Below, one piece after another: positions 5,696-10,761 of a stretch of DNA of 64,000 nucleotides. The DNA comes from Algoriphagus sp. NG3 (GTDB lineage: Bacteria > Bacteroidota > Bacteroidia > Cytophagales > Cyclobacteriaceae). The notes beneath the pieces are model-generated. The model ran no database searches and was not told the origin of the DNA. It worked only from the letters and a program-made list of their open reading frames with translations. Positions within the stretch are counted from its first letter, which is position 1. The number at the start of each line of letters is the position of its first letter. The position numbers were made by a program, and so were the translations under genes. The DNA lies in assembly GCF_034119865.1 (NCBI RefSeq), contig NZ_CP139421.1, positions 1,054,001 through 1,118,000 on the forward strand. Reading direction: 5' to 3'.

Positions 5696-6056
5696 GGATT
5701 TAGAGGGTCGGATGTAATCGGTCTTGCGATACAAATGATTCTAAAGATAATGGAAGAGTCTGAAATCTGGGAATGTCCCAAAATTAATGAACTGATCAGA
5801 TAGGAGCCAAATCATCCCATTACGAAGGAACATATGGTAAAAGTCATTTCCTTATCTATCTGGCCATCTAGGTTGGTAAATTAAATCTGATGTCGTTCTG
5901 TATCCTGAGTATATTACGCATAGCCAATGTGAAAAGATTTTTCTCAGATTTTCATACAGGCAGATTTCTTTTTAGATTAGTTATTAAGACTCTAAAATGT
6001 ATCAAGGGCTAAAAGCATAATTTTTAATAGGACTTAAAAAAAATAATCTTTTGAAA
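5696..6056. other. Intergenic region, no gene seen
   Basis: About 360 bases between the divergent esterase and the SUKH gene. It becomes clearly AT-rich toward the right end, marking the left border of the accessory block. No RNA gene, integrase remnant or tRNA fragment was seen. Promoters for both flanking genes must lie here, but no convincing TTTG/TAnnTTTG pair could be picked out by eye. Confidence 0.5.
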
Positions 6057-7130
6057 ATGCACACCACTTCAATCCCATACAACAACCGCTTAAAGCAGCT
6101 ACAGCTTGCTGATATTCCATTCAACAGCATCACAATTGATGATGTTCCGGAGCCTTTCTATAAATATGAAGGAGCTCAATGGTATGACCACAAAGCCTTC
6201 AGGAATATATTGCTCGAAAAACTGACTTTACAACTGCATAGTAATGTGACAAAACTGCTGGTTTTTACACCCAAAGAAGGACATCCTTACGTTGCATTTG
6301 CCTATCTGTCCAAACAAGAAATTGTTGCGATGCAGCTTCCCAATTCCGGAAATTTTAGAAAATGGATGGATAATATTCTTGAAAAACAAGAAGATGCTTT
6401 TTCGGATAGTTTTTTCAAGAGCGAACCAGATCCAAATGAAAGGTATTTGATTGAATTGGGCAAAGGGAGCTTTTCCGTAAAAAGTGGCATAGGCGTTCTT
6501 TATGACGACAAACCAGGTGAAACCGGAGCTTATCTCCACAAAAAAGCACCTGCCGATTATAACAAGGTCGCATTGAACAACGAGAAAGACCAATTCATTC
6601 AGAATTACGCCAAGGCTAATGGAGAAATGGTTAATACTGAAGCCTTGATCCAATTGATTCAAGAGCTTATTAAGTCAAAAAATCTAATCCCAAATCCACC
6701 TGAAAACAATGAAAAGGTGTATAGTGAATTTGAAACGCTTGCAAAGTATAAATTCCCGGAAGCACTAAAAACCTTGCTCAGCCTTCATAACGGTATCGAA
6801 AAAACAGGCTTTCTATCCGCCCAAAAAATCCTGGCAGAATGGAAAATCTGGAAAGGAATTTATGATGACCCCAATTGGAAGCTGGAAGACCTTACCGGTA
6901 ACAATCAGGCAGACGGATACCAAACCCTTGGCGTCTATACCAACCCCTATTGGGTGCCGTTTTACAGCACAGGTGGCGGCAATTTTCTTGCGATAGATTA
7001 TGCTCCTGGTGTGCAAGGGAAGTCGGGGCAAATTATTTCTTTTGGTGCTGATGAAAGCAGGATCAGGTTAATAGCAGATGATATGGAGGCATTTTTACAA
7101 CTACTACTCTCTGGCAACTTAAATTTATAA
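6057..7130 (+). CDS. Two-domain SMI1/KNR4 (SUKH) family protein
   Basis: Cytoplasmic protein of 357 residues from the ATG at 6057 (an in-frame TTG six bases upstream is less likely). The C-terminal half, from about residue 225, is a SUKH domain: FPEALKTLLSLHNGI, then a central region ending in WVPFYSTGGGNFLAIDY and SGQIISFG, the family's most conserved strands. The first 190 residues form a separate domain that I do not recognise. SUKH proteins are commonly immunity proteins against secreted toxin domains, but some have other roles, and no toxin gene is adjacent. First gene of an AT-rich accessory block; a lipoprotein gene follows after 4 bases. Confidence 0.85.
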   Translation: MHTTSIPYNNRLKQLQLADIPFNSITIDDVPEPFYKYEGAQWYDHKAFRNILLEKLTLQLHSNVTKLLVFTPKEGHPYVAFAYLSKQEIVAMQLPNSGNFRKWMDNILEKQEDAFSDSFFKSEPDPNERYLIELGKGSFSVKSGIGVLYDDKPGETGAYLHKKAPADYNKVALNNEKDQFIQNYAKANGEMVNTEALIQLIQELIKSKNLIPNPPENNEKVYSEFETLAKYKFPEALKTLLSLHNGIEKTGFLSAQKILAEWKIWKGIYDDPNWKLEDLTGNNQADGYQTLGVYTNPYWVPFYSTGGGNFLAIDYAPGVQGKSGQIISFGADESRIRLIADDMEAFLQLLLSGNLNL

Positions 7131-7134
7131 AATC

Positions 7135-7725
7135 ATGGGTAAGTTTTTCTCAATATTACTAATAAGCATGCTGGCAGCAATTTGTTTCGGTTGTTCAGCA
7201 ACAAAGTCAAAAAAAACCACTTTTAATCAACAAAATCACTCAAGTATGATACGTTTTATCAAATCAATGGCAACGGGCTATGTGAAGTCCGGCAATTACG
7301 GCGGTTCTACCCAACACGAACAATTTCCGTCGGTTTACAATTACAGCTATTTCAATGGCGAAACTTCAAAAAAGAACAAGGAATTTCAATCTATTTTCAA
7401 CCGTTACCTGCAACATACAAGGGTAAACAACAGCGTAACACTGCAAGATTATCTCACACATTTGTTAAACAACAATACCGAAAAGCTTCAAGAAATCCAC
7501 AACCAAAACCAAGGAAAAAAAGAAATAGGAAATAGTCGTCAAGAACTCCCAACGCTGTTTTTTGTAGATGACGAAGCCGGTACCGTGCTACGCATTGATC
7601 CTTATTTGGCAACATTAAGCTGGAACCAACATTCGACCAATCTCAATCAATTTTTACAGAAAAATGCTACCCATTTTAGCAGCGAAATACCCGATGAATT
7701 TTTTACTAAATACTATGGAAAATGA
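7135..7725 (+). CDS. Uncharacterised lipoprotein (tandem paralogue 1)
   Basis: A 196-residue protein with a signal sequence ending in a lipobox (AICFGC, Cys20), so it is predicted to be anchored to a periplasmic face. No family is recognised. Residues about 84-170 (NNSVTLQDYL, LPTLFFVDD, LRIDPYL) resemble residues about 206-290 of the next protein, suggesting a shared domain and duplication. Its stop overlaps the next start (ATGA at 7722), so the two are translationally coupled. Placement directly behind a SUKH gene fits an immunity or defence-type cassette, which is an inference. Confidence 0.8.
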   Translation: MGKFFSILLISMLAAICFGCSATKSKKTTFNQQNHSSMIRFIKSMATGYVKSGNYGGSTQHEQFPSVYNYSYFNGETSKKNKEFQSIFNRYLQHTRVNNSVTLQDYLTHLLNNNTEKLQEIHNQNQGKKEIGNSRQELPTLFFVDDEAGTVLRIDPYLATLSWNQHSTNLNQFLQKNATHFSSEIPDEFFTKYYGK

Positions 7726-8687
7726 AGCACATATTCAGCACCCTAGTTGTCTTGACTTACGTTTTCATTGGTGCATTCGGCGGATGTGCGCAACAAACAG
7801 GAACAACTGAAATCGCAAAAATGGACTACAGAAAAGACCAAATAATTTTAGAAATAGCATTGACACCGGGCGGTCCGGAAAGCAATAGTTATGCCTACAC
7901 CGTTTATGCCGATGGACGTGTTTCCATTCCCGGACAAACTTATAACACAGCAAGTTATCAGCTTTCAAGCGAGCAATTGGAAGAATTGCATTCTAAATTA
8001 GTAAACATAAATTTTGTAAAACTAAGCGAAGAAAAAAATAGTGTTTCGGCAAAACCACAGGTTCACGACGGGCAAACAAAAATAGTAGGCTACTATCAGA
8101 ACGGGAAGTTCTATCGATTAAGTTATCAATTGGGAGACGAGCCTATTCCAATTGAAGTGAATGATTTTCATACTTATTTTTTAGAATTGGTAGCTACCCT
8201 TGATAGCCAAGATTTTGCTGAAAGTAGCCCATTACAAGCACTTCAAATTTCGCATATAGAATTAGAGCATACCAACCCCTCGATGGGGATTCACGAGAAA
8301 ATAATTACGATTCGACTTGCGAATAATGCTGACACAATGGGTGAAATCAATCAATTTTTATCTGAAGCTATCATAAACAATTCCATTCCTCTTTCGGAAT
8401 TTATAGGTGCTTATCGAACCAAAAATGAAGAAGAGTTAAAAAGGGTATTAACAAATTTCAAACCGGCTAAAGAGTTAAATGAAGGAGAACAAATTTCAAA
8501 CTTGACTTTCTACTTTTCCGACACTACAAGCTCACTGACATTCAGTGATGTATATCGAAATTATTCCATTGCTGGTTTCTATGGAAAATTCACACAATAT
8601 ATGGTTGACAATGGCAGCAGAACAGAAACGGGGACTTCCATTGAAAGTCTGAGACCAGTTGATACAGACGAAGATACTAAGGATTAA
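7722..8687 (+). CDS. Uncharacterised two-domain lipoprotein (tandem paralogue 2)
   Basis: A 321-residue lipoprotein with lipobox AFGGC (Cys22). The first domain (about 35-160) has the alternating strand pattern SYAYTVYADGRVSI followed by a helix LSSEQLEELHSKL, reminiscent of DUF6438-like lipoproteins. The second (about 206-290) resembles the preceding gene's product. It overlaps that gene by four bases. Six bases after its stop the first ACCACATAG-family repeat material begins. Function unknown; low GC and isolation from housekeeping genes suggest acquired DNA. Confidence 0.8.
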   Translation: MKHIFSTLVVLTYVFIGAFGGCAQQTGTTEIAKMDYRKDQIILEIALTPGGPESNSYAYTVYADGRVSIPGQTYNTASYQLSSEQLEELHSKLVNINFVKLSEEKNSVSAKPQVHDGQTKIVGYYQNGKFYRLSYQLGDEPIPIEVNDFHTYFLELVATLDSQDFAESSPLQALQISHIELEHTNPSMGIHEKIITIRLANNADTMGEINQFLSEAIINNSIPLSEFIGAYRTKNEEELKRVLTNFKPAKELNEGEQISNLTFYFSDTTSSLTFSDVYRNYSIAGFYGKFTQYMVDNGSRTETGTSIESLRPVDTDEDTKD

Positions 8688-8692
8688 AAATA

Positions 8693-8702
8693 ACTATGTG
8701 GT
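8693..8702. repeat. Partial ACCACATAG element (right end only)
   Basis: The bases CTATGTGGTG just after the lipoprotein stop match the right terminus of the full elements. They are followed by the A-rich spacer GAAAAATATA and then the first complete copy. This looks like the remains of an earlier unit of the array. Confidence 0.6.
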
Positions 8703-8714
8703 GGAAAAATATAA

Positions 8715-8784
8715 ACCACATAGTGACATAGAGAACATAGGGGCTATGTAAAAAAAACTATGTGCTACTATGTGTCTATGTGGT
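8715..8784. repeat. ACCACATAG inverted repeat, copy A
   Basis: A 70-bp imperfect palindrome starting ACCACATAG and ending CTATGTGGT. The arms repeat the pentamer CATAG three times on the left and CTATG three times on the right, at spacings of 3-5 bases, around an A-rich loop. Transcribed, it would fold into a long interrupted hairpin. It ends 18 bases before the GxxExxY start codon. Confidence 0.9.
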
Positions 8785-8802
8785 AGTAAAAGATATAGCG
8801 AA

Positions 8803-9213
8803 ATGACAAAGAAGTATTTAGATGAATTAACCTATAAAGTAATTGGATGCTGTATCACAGTGCACAATGCTTTAGGGCCAGGTTTATTAGAAAGCGTTTA
8901 CCATAGATGCTTGATGGAGGAATTTAAGTTTCAGGGAATACGCTTTAATTCTGAACTAATAGTGCCTGTAGAGTACCGAAATGTAAAACTAGACGCGTTA
9001 TTGAGAGCAGATTTTTATGTTGAAAATTGTTTGGTCATAGAATTAAAAGCTGTTGAAGCGGTTATGCCAATACACGAAGCACAGTTGATGACCTATTTGA
9101 AATTATTAGACGCCCCCAAAGGAATTTTAATCAATTTCAATTGCACCAACATCTTTCACAATGGACAAAAAACTTATGTAACAGAAAAATATAGAAGCTT
9201 GAATGAAAAATAA
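8803..9213 (+). CDS. GxxExxY family protein (PD-(D/E)xK-like)
   Basis: A 136-residue protein of the GxxExxY family (PF13366). The ATG at 8803 is chosen because the earlier in-frame ATG at 8770 lies inside the inverted repeat. Visible landmarks are the name-giving GLLESVY (27-33), Asp70 in RADFYV, ELK (80-82) and HEAQ (91-94). The D...ExK pattern is that of PD-(D/E)xK nuclease folds, though no biochemical role is established for the family to my knowledge. The gene is bracketed by complete ACCACATAG inverted repeats on both sides, with only short spacers. That arrangement suggests a mobile unit or a protein that recognises the repeat. Confidence 0.93.
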   Translation: MTKKYLDELTYKVIGCCITVHNALGPGLLESVYHRCLMEEFKFQGIRFNSELIVPVEYRNVKLDALLRADFYVENCLVIELKAVEAVMPIHEAQLMTYLKLLDAPKGILINFNCTNIFHNGQKTYVTEKYRSLNEK

Positions 9214-9219
9214 TTTACA

Positions 9220-9292
9220 ACCACATAGTAACATAGAAAACATAGCGACTATGTGATAAAAAATACTATGTGTAGCTATGTGTCTATGTGGT
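9220..9292. repeat. ACCACATAG inverted repeat, copy B
   Basis: A 73-bp copy beginning 6 bases after the GxxExxY stop. It has the same termini (ACCACATAG...CTATGTGGT) and the same CATAG/CTATG iteration, with an A-rich central loop. The next start codon lies 32 bases downstream. Confidence 0.9.
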
Positions 9293-9324
9293 AGAAAAAA
9301 ATAAAAGTAAAAAAAATCAATCCT

Positions 9325-9885
9325 ATGTCAGAACCAAATTCACTATTTGCAAAAATCAAAATAAGAAAAGAGCGTTTACATCATTTTCTTAAATCAAAAC
9401 CAACAAATCCACAACTGAATGAAAACTGGCTTGAATGGTGGAATTCAAAACAAATGTACGGAAAGAAAGAATTGACGCAAACGGACTTAAGATGTTATGA
9501 TTTTGCGACCAATGAAGCCATCATAACAGATTTTGTAAATGACCCGCGTACGTATTCATTTTCGGATTATGATGAAGAGAGCGAAACTTGGTATTTTGGA
9601 ATTATGCTTTTTACCGAAAATTATTTTGAAATGATACCGGGCCTAGCCTTAATTCAGAGCATTTCCAAATTTAAAGAGTTTGATAGTACTGATTTTGCCA
9701 TTATCTACAATTTTTTCTGGGAAGATGATATAATCGATGTCTTGATGATTTTTGAAAAAGATCATGCCATTTTCGATACAAGGATTAATGCAAAAGCAGA
9801 TTTAAATCCTGACATTCTCTTGCTTTGCAATACCTATTTGGAGAAAAAGTTGAATGAATTTGAGAATAATTCATCACCATCTTAA
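9325..9885 (+). CDS. Uncharacterised immunity-like cytoplasmic protein
   Basis: A 186-residue acidic protein without signal peptide or membrane segment. No family is recognised with confidence. The body has an amphipathic alpha/beta pattern with aromatic-rich strands (ETWYFGIMLF, DFAIIYNFFW) and an acidic DEESE stretch, a style common in small immunity proteins of polymorphic toxin systems. It lies between complete repeat copies B and C, and like its neighbours is AT-rich. No toxin partner is visible. Could equally be an unrelated accessory protein. Confidence 0.75.
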   Translation: MSEPNSLFAKIKIRKERLHHFLKSKPTNPQLNENWLEWWNSKQMYGKKELTQTDLRCYDFATNEAIITDFVNDPRTYSFSDYDEESETWYFGIMLFTENYFEMIPGLALIQSISKFKEFDSTDFAIIYNFFWEDDIIDVLMIFEKDHAIFDTRINAKADLNPDILLLCNTYLEKKLNEFENNSSPS

Positions 9886-9901
9886 GTGTATTTTTTAAAA
9901 A

Positions 9902-9930
9902 CTATGTGCATCTATTATGTCTATATGATA
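9902..9930. repeat. Partial ACCACATAG element (decayed right arm)
   Basis: The stretch from CTATGTGCATC to CTATATGAT matches the right arm of the full element with several changes and no left arm. It sits between the preceding stop and complete copy C, evidence of decay or of partial deletion of a unit. Confidence 0.65.
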
Positions 9931-9941
9931 GAAAAATTAGA

Positions 9942-10013
9942 ACCACATAGTAACATAGAAAACATAGCAACTAACTGGTAAAAAATCTATGTGCAGCTAC
10001 GTGTCTATGTGGT
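9942..10013. repeat. ACCACATAG inverted repeat, copy C
   Basis: A 72-bp copy with intact termini. One internal CTATG of the right arm reads CTACG, and the centre has CTAACTGG where other copies have CTATGTG. It is separated from copy D by only 14 bases (AGAGAAAGATTAAA), making a tandem pair. Confidence 0.9.
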
Positions 10014-10027
10014 AGAGAAAGATTAAA

Positions 10028-10098
10028 ACCACATAGTAAGATAGAAAACATAGCAGCTAAGTGGTAAAAAACTATGTGCAGCTATGTGTCTATGTGTT
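10028..10098. repeat. ACCACATAG inverted repeat, copy D
   Basis: A 71-bp copy with left end ACCACATAG and a mutated right end CTATGTGTT. It ends 16 bases before the next start codon. Together with copy C it forms a tandem pair upstream of the degenerate HExxH protein gene. Confidence 0.9.
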
Positions 10099-10114
10099 AG
10101 GAAAAACCAAAAAA

Positions 10115-10615
10115 ATGAATAAAGCAGAACAACTAGTAACCAAATACTTCCGCCAGCTCCAAGCAGTCTTCCCTGAATTTAACACACAGGATAAAAGGAT
10201 TTTTGAGTCCTCAGAAATAGATTTTCCTTTTTCTTGGAAAGACCCTTTGAAAGCCGCTGACAATGTGTTGAAGCTATTGGCAAGGCACATCGGCTTAAAT
10301 CCCAACAGGATTGAATTAATGTTTTACAGCGATTATCCCAAAGAAGACGTTGAAGACCCAAACTCAATTTATTTGAGGTTTAAGAACAATAGAAAACCAA
10401 CGCTCAAAGACTATCAAGGTAATATCAAACGATTTGCTTTCAATATAGATGCTACTGTTTTTGAATATGCCGATTGGGTTATCGCTGCCATTGCCCATGA
10501 ACTTTGTTATTTGAAACTTTTGGAAAACGGTAAATTTGATGTGAAAGATGAAAAACTGATTGACGTAGCTACGGCTTATTTTGGTTTTGGAAAGTTGGCT
10601 GCAAAAATAAGATAG
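10115..10615 (+). CDS. Uncharacterised protein with degenerate HExxH-like motif
   Basis: A 166-residue protein from the ATG at 10115; an upstream GTG at 10061 is inside the inverted repeat and is rejected. The C-terminal part reads AHELCYLKLL, then DEKLIDVATAYFGFG. This parallels a Bacteroidota family with HELxHxxLL followed by E-x3-D, a gluzincin-like zinc site. Here the second zinc His is Tyr132, so metal binding and peptidase activity are probably lost. His128, Glu129 and the downstream E146...D150 are kept. Last gene of the AT-rich block, followed by the tRNA-Leu gene in the opposite orientation. Confidence 0.75.
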   Translation: MNKAEQLVTKYFRQLQAVFPEFNTQDKRIFESSEIDFPFSWKDPLKAADNVLKLLARHIGLNPNRIELMFYSDYPKEDVEDPNSIYLRFKNNRKPTLKDYQGNIKRFAFNIDATVFEYADWVIAAIAHELCYLKLLENGKFDVKDEKLIDVATAYFGFGKLAAKIR

Positions 10616-10644
10616 GTCATATCCCAGGTAATGGCCAAGAGGCA

Positions 10645-10677
10645 TAAAAAAAGGCCTCTCTTGAATTGAGAAGCCTT
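10645..10677 (-). terminator. Rho-independent terminator of tRNA-Leu
   Basis: Read on the minus strand, AAGGCTTCTC and GAGAGGCCTT pair around AATTCAA and run into seven T residues. It lies just beyond the 3' end of the tRNA, and probably also limits transcription from the convergent accessory genes. Confidence 0.85.
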
Positions 10678-10679
10678 AG

Positions 10680-10761
10680 TGCGGATAGAGGGACTCGAAC
10701 CCCCATGCCTTACGGCGCTAGATCCTAAGTCTAGTGCGTCTACCAATTTCGCCACATCCGC
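10680..10761 (-). tRNA. tRNA-Leu (anticodon TAG)
   Basis: An 82-nt class II tRNA. Acceptor stem GCGGATG pairs with TATCCGC (one G-U), the discriminator base is A and no CCA is encoded. The anticodon stem CTAGA/TCTAG encloses loop CTTAGGA with anticodon TAG. A variable arm CGCCGTAAGGCATG and T-loop GGTTCGAGTCC are present. It decodes CUA, and by wobble other CUN codons. Its 3' end faces the AT-rich block, an orientation used by many integrating elements. Confidence 0.96.

Follow-up and report, generated by a model that had tools for sequence, protein, structure and literature searches.

Among described systems, the closest to the locus reported here is that of repetitive extragenic palindromes (REPs) and their RAYT transposases (TnpA-REP, 'REPtrons'), in which a small chromosomal gene has inverted palindromes of family-specific sequence on either side, solo repeats lie elsewhere, the position is intergenic and the spread is patchy. 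PMC3733652 defines a REP as a palindrome of 20-40 bp with a GTAG tag at one foot. The same traits recur in a 64,000-nucleotide stretch of Algoriphagus sp. NG3 (the window; contig NZ_CP139421.1, positions 1,054,001 to 1,118,000 of the forward strand, from a genome of 5.89 Mb in one contig), where a GxxExxY gene of 136 aa (8803..9213, + strand) stands between palindromic arrays. We propose that this gene, together with the iterated inverted arrays on either side, makes up a single small selfish element, a reading to which we assign a probability of about 0.6. The original prediction had likened the layout to REP/RAYT, and the likeness holds insofar as inverted palindromes flank a nuclease-like gene; it ends at the enzyme, which is of the PD-(D/E)xK type where REP/RAYT has an HUH tyrosine transposase, and at the repeat, as the window copies are stems of 70-73 bp made of iterated units where REPs are 20-40 bp and GTAG-tagged, the tip enriched across loci is TTAACCR, and none of 40 RAYT loci carries these arrays.

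Other systems offer partial parallels. Miniature inverted-repeat transposable elements (MITEs) and insertion sequences (IS) likewise have short inverted ends around one gene and solo derivatives without it, whereas the ends of the GxxExxY element are iterated arrays, its protein belongs to no transposase family and no target duplication could be read, the relatives being too diverged at the sites. The four-helix-bundle family TIGR02436, to which we take the S23-protein open reading frame (ORF) of the 23S rRNA intervening sequence (IVS) to belong, is also a tiny selfish gene that uses some of the same slots and has iterated inverted arrays of its own, but its protein family is unrelated and the classical IVS sits inside an rRNA gene. 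PMC4990558 describes the IVS as selfish and as carrying an ORF for an S23 protein.

The GxxExxY protein is predicted to be a minimal Cas4/RecB-like nuclease, as judged from its modeled fold and intact active-site residues. It matches PF13366 (E 2.8e-39, 134.5 bits, cut-off 22) and TIGR04256 (E 5e-40, 136.5 bits, curated cut-off 35), and its motif residues are G27, E30 and Y33 (GxxExxY), D70, E80-x-K82 and Q94-xxx-Y98. The residues G27, E30, Y33, D70, E80 and K82 are all present and are conserved in 99-100% of 186 relatives, which bears out the PD-(D/E)xK-like pattern (Asp70, ELK 80-82) first read from the sequence, and the structure model (pLDDT 94) agrees with it; the best PDB match is SSO0001, which we take to be a Cas4. 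Alignment of the relatives together with the model gives a Cas4-type PD-(D/E)xK core with QxxxY. Cas4 proteins have four conserved cysteines for an iron-sulfur cluster. No cysteine is found among the positions kept in at least 93% of the 186 GxxExxY proteins, and for this reason no such cluster is expected in them. The likeness to the Cas4/RecB family therefore lies in the predicted fold, the D...ExK and QxxxY motifs, the SSO0001 match and weak profile matches, and the difference lies in the lack of conserved cysteines, the tie to inverted arrays and scores below the Cas4 cut-offs (16.1 bits vs 65 for NCBIfam cas4, 17 vs 22.7 for Pfam Cas_Cas4). A GxxExxY domain has been reported where another program had called cas4 (PMC8934634). 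No match at E <= 0.1 was found between the GxxExxY protein and either PF01797 (Y1 transposase) or TIGR02436. A defence role was set aside, since PADLOC returned only weak Cas4 and RT-nuclease matches. Judged from sequence, the enzyme and the repeat both differ from every system compared, and because of this we regard the element as a new kind, one that would act like REP/RAYT yet lacks the features that define it.

Four complete palindromes and two fragments occupy the window locus at the coordinates originally given, all on the + strand. Copy 1 (8715..8784) lies upstream of the GxxExxY gene and copy 2 (9220..9292) starts 6 bp past its stop codon, so the two bracket the gene as had been claimed; copy 3 is at 9942..10013 and copy 4, complete but weaker, at 10028..10098. 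One fragment (~8693..8702) is the right tip of a copy (ACTATGTGGT) and the other (~9897..9931) a degenerate right arm. Each hairpin arm holds about three CATAG/CACATAG units, and one end of the copies reads GTGGTAG in three of the four and GTGTTAG in the fourth. With up to one mismatch, ACCACATAG occurs 25 times in the window vs 10.6 expected, a number reached by 0/100 shuffles. Folded as single-stranded DNA, the copies form short helices with small internal loops in between; on the + strand, the stability of copies 1-3 clearly exceeds that of shuffles (z -6.3, -5.9 and -3.2), and copy 4 is weaker (z -1.7 on +, -2.9 on -). When the whole genome was searched with copy 2, it returned the four window copies and two partial 29-bp matches 0.4 Mb off, at 0.66 Mb, with no further copies at E <= 0.001.

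Iterated units are not peculiar to this locus. The window's genome has six GxxExxY loci, and by eye each of the other five is adjoined by units of its own: CAAAG (downstream only), CGCAGAG, CACAGAG, CACAGAG/CACGGAG (at an interrupted gene) and CACAAAG/CGCAAAG. Loci were gathered from this genome and its relatives (91), from named genomes (80, the best 80 of at least 585, chosen for likeness to one query and hence non-random) and from a phylum sample (28). Some loci of named Algoriphagus genomes occupy sites that are also occupied in congeners of the window's genome. Both flanks could be parsed at 191 loci (88, 75 and 28, respectively); L011 and the duplicates L024, L031, L042 and L044 were left out of the counts, and the viral locus L188 stands outside the three flank-test sets but inside the 200-locus word, co-variation, spacing and CACATAG counts. 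A strict array was defined as two or more gene-facing CRCRRAG units that are spaced 7-14 bp and lie no farther than 300 bp from the gene, a definition that does not count the CATAG of the window.

Strict inward arrays were present on at least one side at 38/88, 57/75 and 22/28 loci. Within 300 bp, inward arrays were counted upstream at 27/90, 44/77 and 19/28 and downstream at 29/89, 47/78 and 14/28, and outward arrays upstream at 2/90, 13/77 and 2/28 and downstream at 2/89, 12/78 and 3/28; windows farther off (600-900 and 1000-1300 bp) gave 0-2 inward and 0-3 outward arrays per class. Word counts that assume no unit, made at 200 loci in 392 near and 378 far windows (either strand), returned the same family of words: CGCAAAG (103 near inward, 33 outward, 13 far), CACAGAG (97, 26 and 16), CGCAGAG (79, 22 and 13) and the tip TAACCGC (51, 9 and 7), with TTAACCR as the enriched outer tip. 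The general form is ACC-RCRRAG-n-CRCRRAG-n-CRCRRAG with its mirror image downstream, and the window clade uses CACATAG. By record title, 28 loci lie outside the Bacteroidota; when a looser unit was allowed, 25 of these had two or more units no more than 60 bp away on one or both sides (the exceptions being L135, L146 and L153), and 21 of the 28 genomes concerned contain triple arrays, with no instance of the reversed pattern. The two flanks of a locus also resemble each other in inverse orientation: own flanks matched beyond 95% of swapped pairs at 49/88, 36/76 and 13/28 GxxExxY loci vs 0/84, 0/69 and 0/28 in far windows, and short-period iteration, near vs far, was 4.1 vs 2.3, 4.5 vs 2.4 and 3.6 vs 3.2. 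Separately, L013 has at ~1260-1980 a direct duplication of ~550 bp with two compound hairpins that combine a left arm of CATAG type with a right arm of CTCTGCG/CTCCGTG type.

Gene and array also occur together across genomes. In a sample of 198 genomes of the phylum, for which p by genome ignores kinship, TIGR04256 matched in 101 genomes and a triple CRCRRAG array was present in 36; the gene was found in 35/36 array genomes vs 66/162 others (p 4.5e-11, odds ratio 51) and, by genus, in 24/24 with arrays vs 36/78 without (p 4e-7), and the reversed triple pattern occurred in none. Part of this co-occurrence arises because arrays lie beside GxxExxY genes. A repeat spread widely without the gene would have spoken against the original prediction, and only one of the 36 triple-array genomes lacks a GxxExxY match. 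The same sample bears on the view that RAYT (Y1 HUH) transposases spread the arrays as REPs, among which GxxExxY genes merely happen to lie. Y1_Tnp matches are common (145/198 genomes) and occur in 35/36 array genomes vs 110/162 others (p 1e-4), and REPs are likewise intergenic palindromes; yet the odds ratio of 16.5 is smaller than that for GxxExxY, 0/40 Y1_Tnp loci from the same genomes carry CRCRRAG arrays, CACATAG occurs more than once within 350 bp at 0/40, and their flanks are rich in other words, which makes this view very improbable. RAYT loci have inverse-matching flanks (26/39, and 1/37 in far windows) with a short-period iteration of 2.6 near vs 2.3 far. The words enriched in RAYT flanks (L377-L416) are GGGCTTT/AAAGCCC and CCTACGG, possibly the REPs of these genes.

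Unit and spacing also follow the protein clade. Unit co-variation was tested at the 114/200 loci with at least three units (the other 86 were left out), with pairs lacking matching outer flanks, and unit similarity climbed with protein identity (Mantel rho 0.18, 0/999 permutations). When the nearest protein in another genome was set against the remaining copies of that other genome, its unit was closer at 19 and farther at 3 of 22 testable loci. Both inter-unit gaps were equal on the two sides in 15/16 readable loci (shuffle mean 4.5, max 11), and in those 15 the arms agreed at 110/135 variable unit positions and 35/65 spacer positions; at 25/53 loci the closest protein of a different genome had the same spacing (shuffle mean 8.4, max 21). 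Two or more inward CACATAG were present at 7/8 proteins at least 50% identical to that of the window (itself included), at 1/33 with 45-50% identity and at 0/159 below, across the 200 loci. These eight near relatives occupy three unrelated sites, namely the window's own locus, the L014 site (L008, L037, L038; by eye, its neighbors resemble OmpA and TolC) and a third site (L032, L043, L051, L055). The proposal that repeat sequence varies with protein clade is upheld for unit sequence (CACATAG 7/8 vs 1/192, besides the Mantel test) and extends to spacing, and we hold it as nearly certain that the arrays are associated with GxxExxY genes and are clade-specific.

Empty sites, which the original prediction called for, were found at four other sites as well as for the window's own island. 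At the L009 site, for which 72 genomes were searched and 30 loci fetched, 22 were anchored on both sides (8 unanchored): five hold gene and arrays in a gap of 567-572 bp, three are array-free at 63-93 bp, one more (75 bp) has a degenerate unit only, L245 and L240 keep array parts in a gap of 208-210 bp that is too short for the gene, and the remaining loci have a different hairpin or other genes. The L014 site (one of 11 loci unanchored on both sides) measures 612 bp when occupied vs 35 bp in G009, and another relative has a decayed gene. The L011 site is empty at 73 bp (G285), holds a hairpin only at 164 bp (G275) or holds the gene; the L010 site is empty at 50 bp (G269) and 65 bp (G255) or holds the gene, and in five genomes a four-helix-bundle gene takes its place (three confirmed by profile and two judged by eye). 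Across these four sites, the variable segment is ~550-640 bp of gene and arrays vs 35-93 bp in relatives without it, and no other inverted ends were seen there by eye. That gene and arrays are gained and lost as one unit is, in our judgment, highly probable.

Other occupants of the L009 slot were also noted. In other species (L222, L223, L229) the site carries a solo CGCAGAT hairpin family (CCCGCAGAT...ATCTGCGGG), and CGCAGAT was rejected as a GxxExxY unit and assigned to a separate family, with 13/392 near inward and 8 outward vs 12/378 far. In L226, L230, L227 and L235 the slot holds RelE-like/MntA-like gene pairs (weak profiles for L226 and L227, the rest by eye).

Orientation at shared sites also varies. 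Same-site pairs comprised 196 in the same orientation and 25 inverted, or 149 and 15, respectively, when both flanks were conserved, and inverted pairs were found at 5/25 shared sites, at one of which a single flank supports the inversion. In one case the flipped L077 is, among the loci collected, the closest relative of the unflipped L069, L071 and L080, which points to an apparent in-place inversion between the array arms, and the presence of another clade (L066, L107) at the same site points to a probable re-insertion. These observations bear on the view that the arrays are regulatory, serving as bidirectional terminators or as processing hairpins by which a repair nuclease of the host is insulated or controlled. 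The hairpins do adjoin start and stop codons, and some genes hold one site in many species (12 loci at one site). The patchy 0-12 matches per genome, interrupted genes, fragments, hairpins without a gene, empty sites and in-place inversions are all element behavior, however, and neither iterated units nor a spacing particular to each clade is needed in a terminator, so we consider a regulatory origin unlikely.

Four-helix-bundle genes allow a further comparison. TIGR02436 genes occur in 153/198 genomes, and of 30 loci (L417-L446), 5 were unparsed and 25 analyzed, with ten printed for reading by eye. Iterated inverted arrays surround the gene at no fewer than six of the ten printed loci, three of which seem to be the same site, and their units, which differ between loci, are unlike CRCRRAG (CTAAG/CTGAG, GGACTAGGGAT, AAGGTGAAAGG and others, by eye). 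Own flanks inverse-matched in 13/25 (2/25 in far windows), and short-period iteration was 4.7 near vs 2.7 far. Genes of this family (L417-L446; L338-L342) share slots with GxxExxY elements. One may ask whether the arrays are pre-existing palindromic hot spots open to any small gene, in which GxxExxY has no role. This fits the slots that elsewhere hold RelE-like/MntA-like pairs or four-helix-bundle genes, and the two other ORFs among the window hairpins; however, four-helix-bundle loci carry different arrays (CRCRRAG in 1/25) and their own flanks match in inverse beyond swapped ones at 13/25, and the unit and spacing of GxxExxY loci track the protein clade over unrelated sites, unlike a shared hot spot. 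We regard the hot-spot view as improbable, though the least so of the alternatives considered.

Several observations weigh against reading gene and arrays as one selfish element. Strict arrays are missing at 50/88 loci of relatives, 18/75 named and 6/28 phylum-sample loci, partly since CATAG falls outside the strict unit. Close to genes of the named set, outward arrays are raised too (13/77 and 12/78), which is what whole hairpins at these positions would produce, and arrays also occur inside genes (6/80 inward, 5/80 outward). Co-variation is modest (rho 0.18), some of it would arise from linkage and common descent by themselves, and the loci are phylogenetically non-independent. Nor is the unit fixed: at the L014 site (L014, L352, L355, L357, L360), units differ between species, the downstream hairpin being CAAAG in two and CATAG in three, a concerted unit switch. 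Eleven shared-site pairs match neither orientation, and no target-site duplication or exact junction is readable for a lone element, with anchors ~68-90% identical. Genome G239 has 27 arrays and one GxxExxY match (140.5 bits; by eye, GTGFQEVIY in place of GPGLLESVY) without an array in the stretch inspected, and was dropped as a clean case of one gene with many arrays. The window's genome (G000) has five solo triple arrays at least 55 kb from its six GxxExxY genes; they are one-armed with spacing (2,4), whereas that of its CAAAG-type gene, L012, was read by eye as (2,3), and this difference in spacing does not support them as cognate products of a resident gene.

The archaeon G289 is a last point of this kind. 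Its 14 fetched CGCAGAG-type hairpin copies ride in a conventional MITE (L477-L490) of ~250 bp with ~15-bp inverted ends like GTAACTACTCAGGTA/TACCTGAGTAGTTAC and CRCRRAG hairpins as passengers, with apparent 8-bp duplications in 3/8 rows by eye; the alignment covers these 14, and six CACAGAG-type copies were also fetched. The high array number of G289 was accordingly dropped as proof of mobilization. This MITE, like the 4.87-kb tRNA-Leu island that holds the window copy, agrees with the view that the gene is carried passively by larger islands or conventional MITEs/IS, of which the arrays are remnants. Against it, four sites vary by ~550-640 bp of gene and arrays only vs 35-93 bp, and with one query the gene was found in 0/50,697 phage and 8/72,556 plasmid records; passive carriage has little probability. 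One viral contig also has the gene.

We keep to the reading of gene and arrays as one small selfish element, and the gain, loss and flipping of this package between genomes suggest a putative, undescribed kind of mobile element. The GxxExxY protein would probably act on its arrays, a claim we hold as firmly as the element itself. It may recognize its own array, probably where replication forks let this array extrude into a hairpin or cruciform, and might then cut at or near the hairpin foot, the AACC/GGTT end, after which repair of the break could move, copy or flip the segment between arrays; such cut-and-repair at the hairpin foot is speculative, and we would not favor it over its negation. 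The window element would be an amplified form, with four hairpins, inside a tRNA-Leu island of other accessory genes.

The surroundings of the window copies are accessory, as originally claimed. The island (5775..10645, 4871 bp) is replaced by 4 bp in congener G019, and lies by a tRNA-Leu (10679..10761, - strand) whose 3' end is towards it. It contains a SUKH gene (by Pfam), the GxxExxY gene, the repeats, two ORFs and two lipoprotein-like genes (by eye). The ORF bracketed by copies 2 and 3 (9325..9885, + strand, 186 aa) has no Pfam/NCBIfam family at E <= 0.1, and the protein collection contains 12 relatives of it (E <= 0.001), of which the top one is 99% identical; the second (10115..10615, + strand, 166 aa if started at the ATG of 10115) follows copy 4 and also has no Pfam/NCBIfam family at E <= 0.1. 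The SUKH-1 (SMI1/KNR4) gene is at 6051-7130, and members of this family are often immunity proteins.

GxxExxY relatives were found in records of Planctomycetes, Chloroflexi, Cyanobacteria, Proteobacteria and methanogens. In open-licence PubMed Central text, GxxExxY and PF13366 are mentioned in passing and no role was found, and among the matches listed, titles and abstract starts gave no description of the gene-plus-array element; six unit 15-mers had no occurrence in this text, and the listed matches of six unit 10-mers were unrelated by title.

In its broadest form, our proposal is that GxxExxY proteins are dedicated nucleases of pan-prokaryotic mobile elements ended by iterated inverted arrays, with a unit and spacing particular to each clade, that these elements transpose, flip within their site and leave behind hairpins without a gene, that four-helix-bundle genes are a parallel class with the same architecture, and that the two classes together account for much of the intergenic repeat DNA of Bacteroidota and of other groups; this we offer tentatively, at somewhat less than even odds. 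GxxExxY is a common, conserved family (101/198 phylum genomes) for which no role was found, and the link to clade-specific arrays supplies a function that can be tested, assigns every clade a cognate DNA substrate and offers an explanation for the patchy distribution of the family. The link also offers an origin for intergenic CRCRRAG repeats and, if true, would define a class of mobile elements that uses a Cas4/RecB-like nuclease in place of a known transposase.

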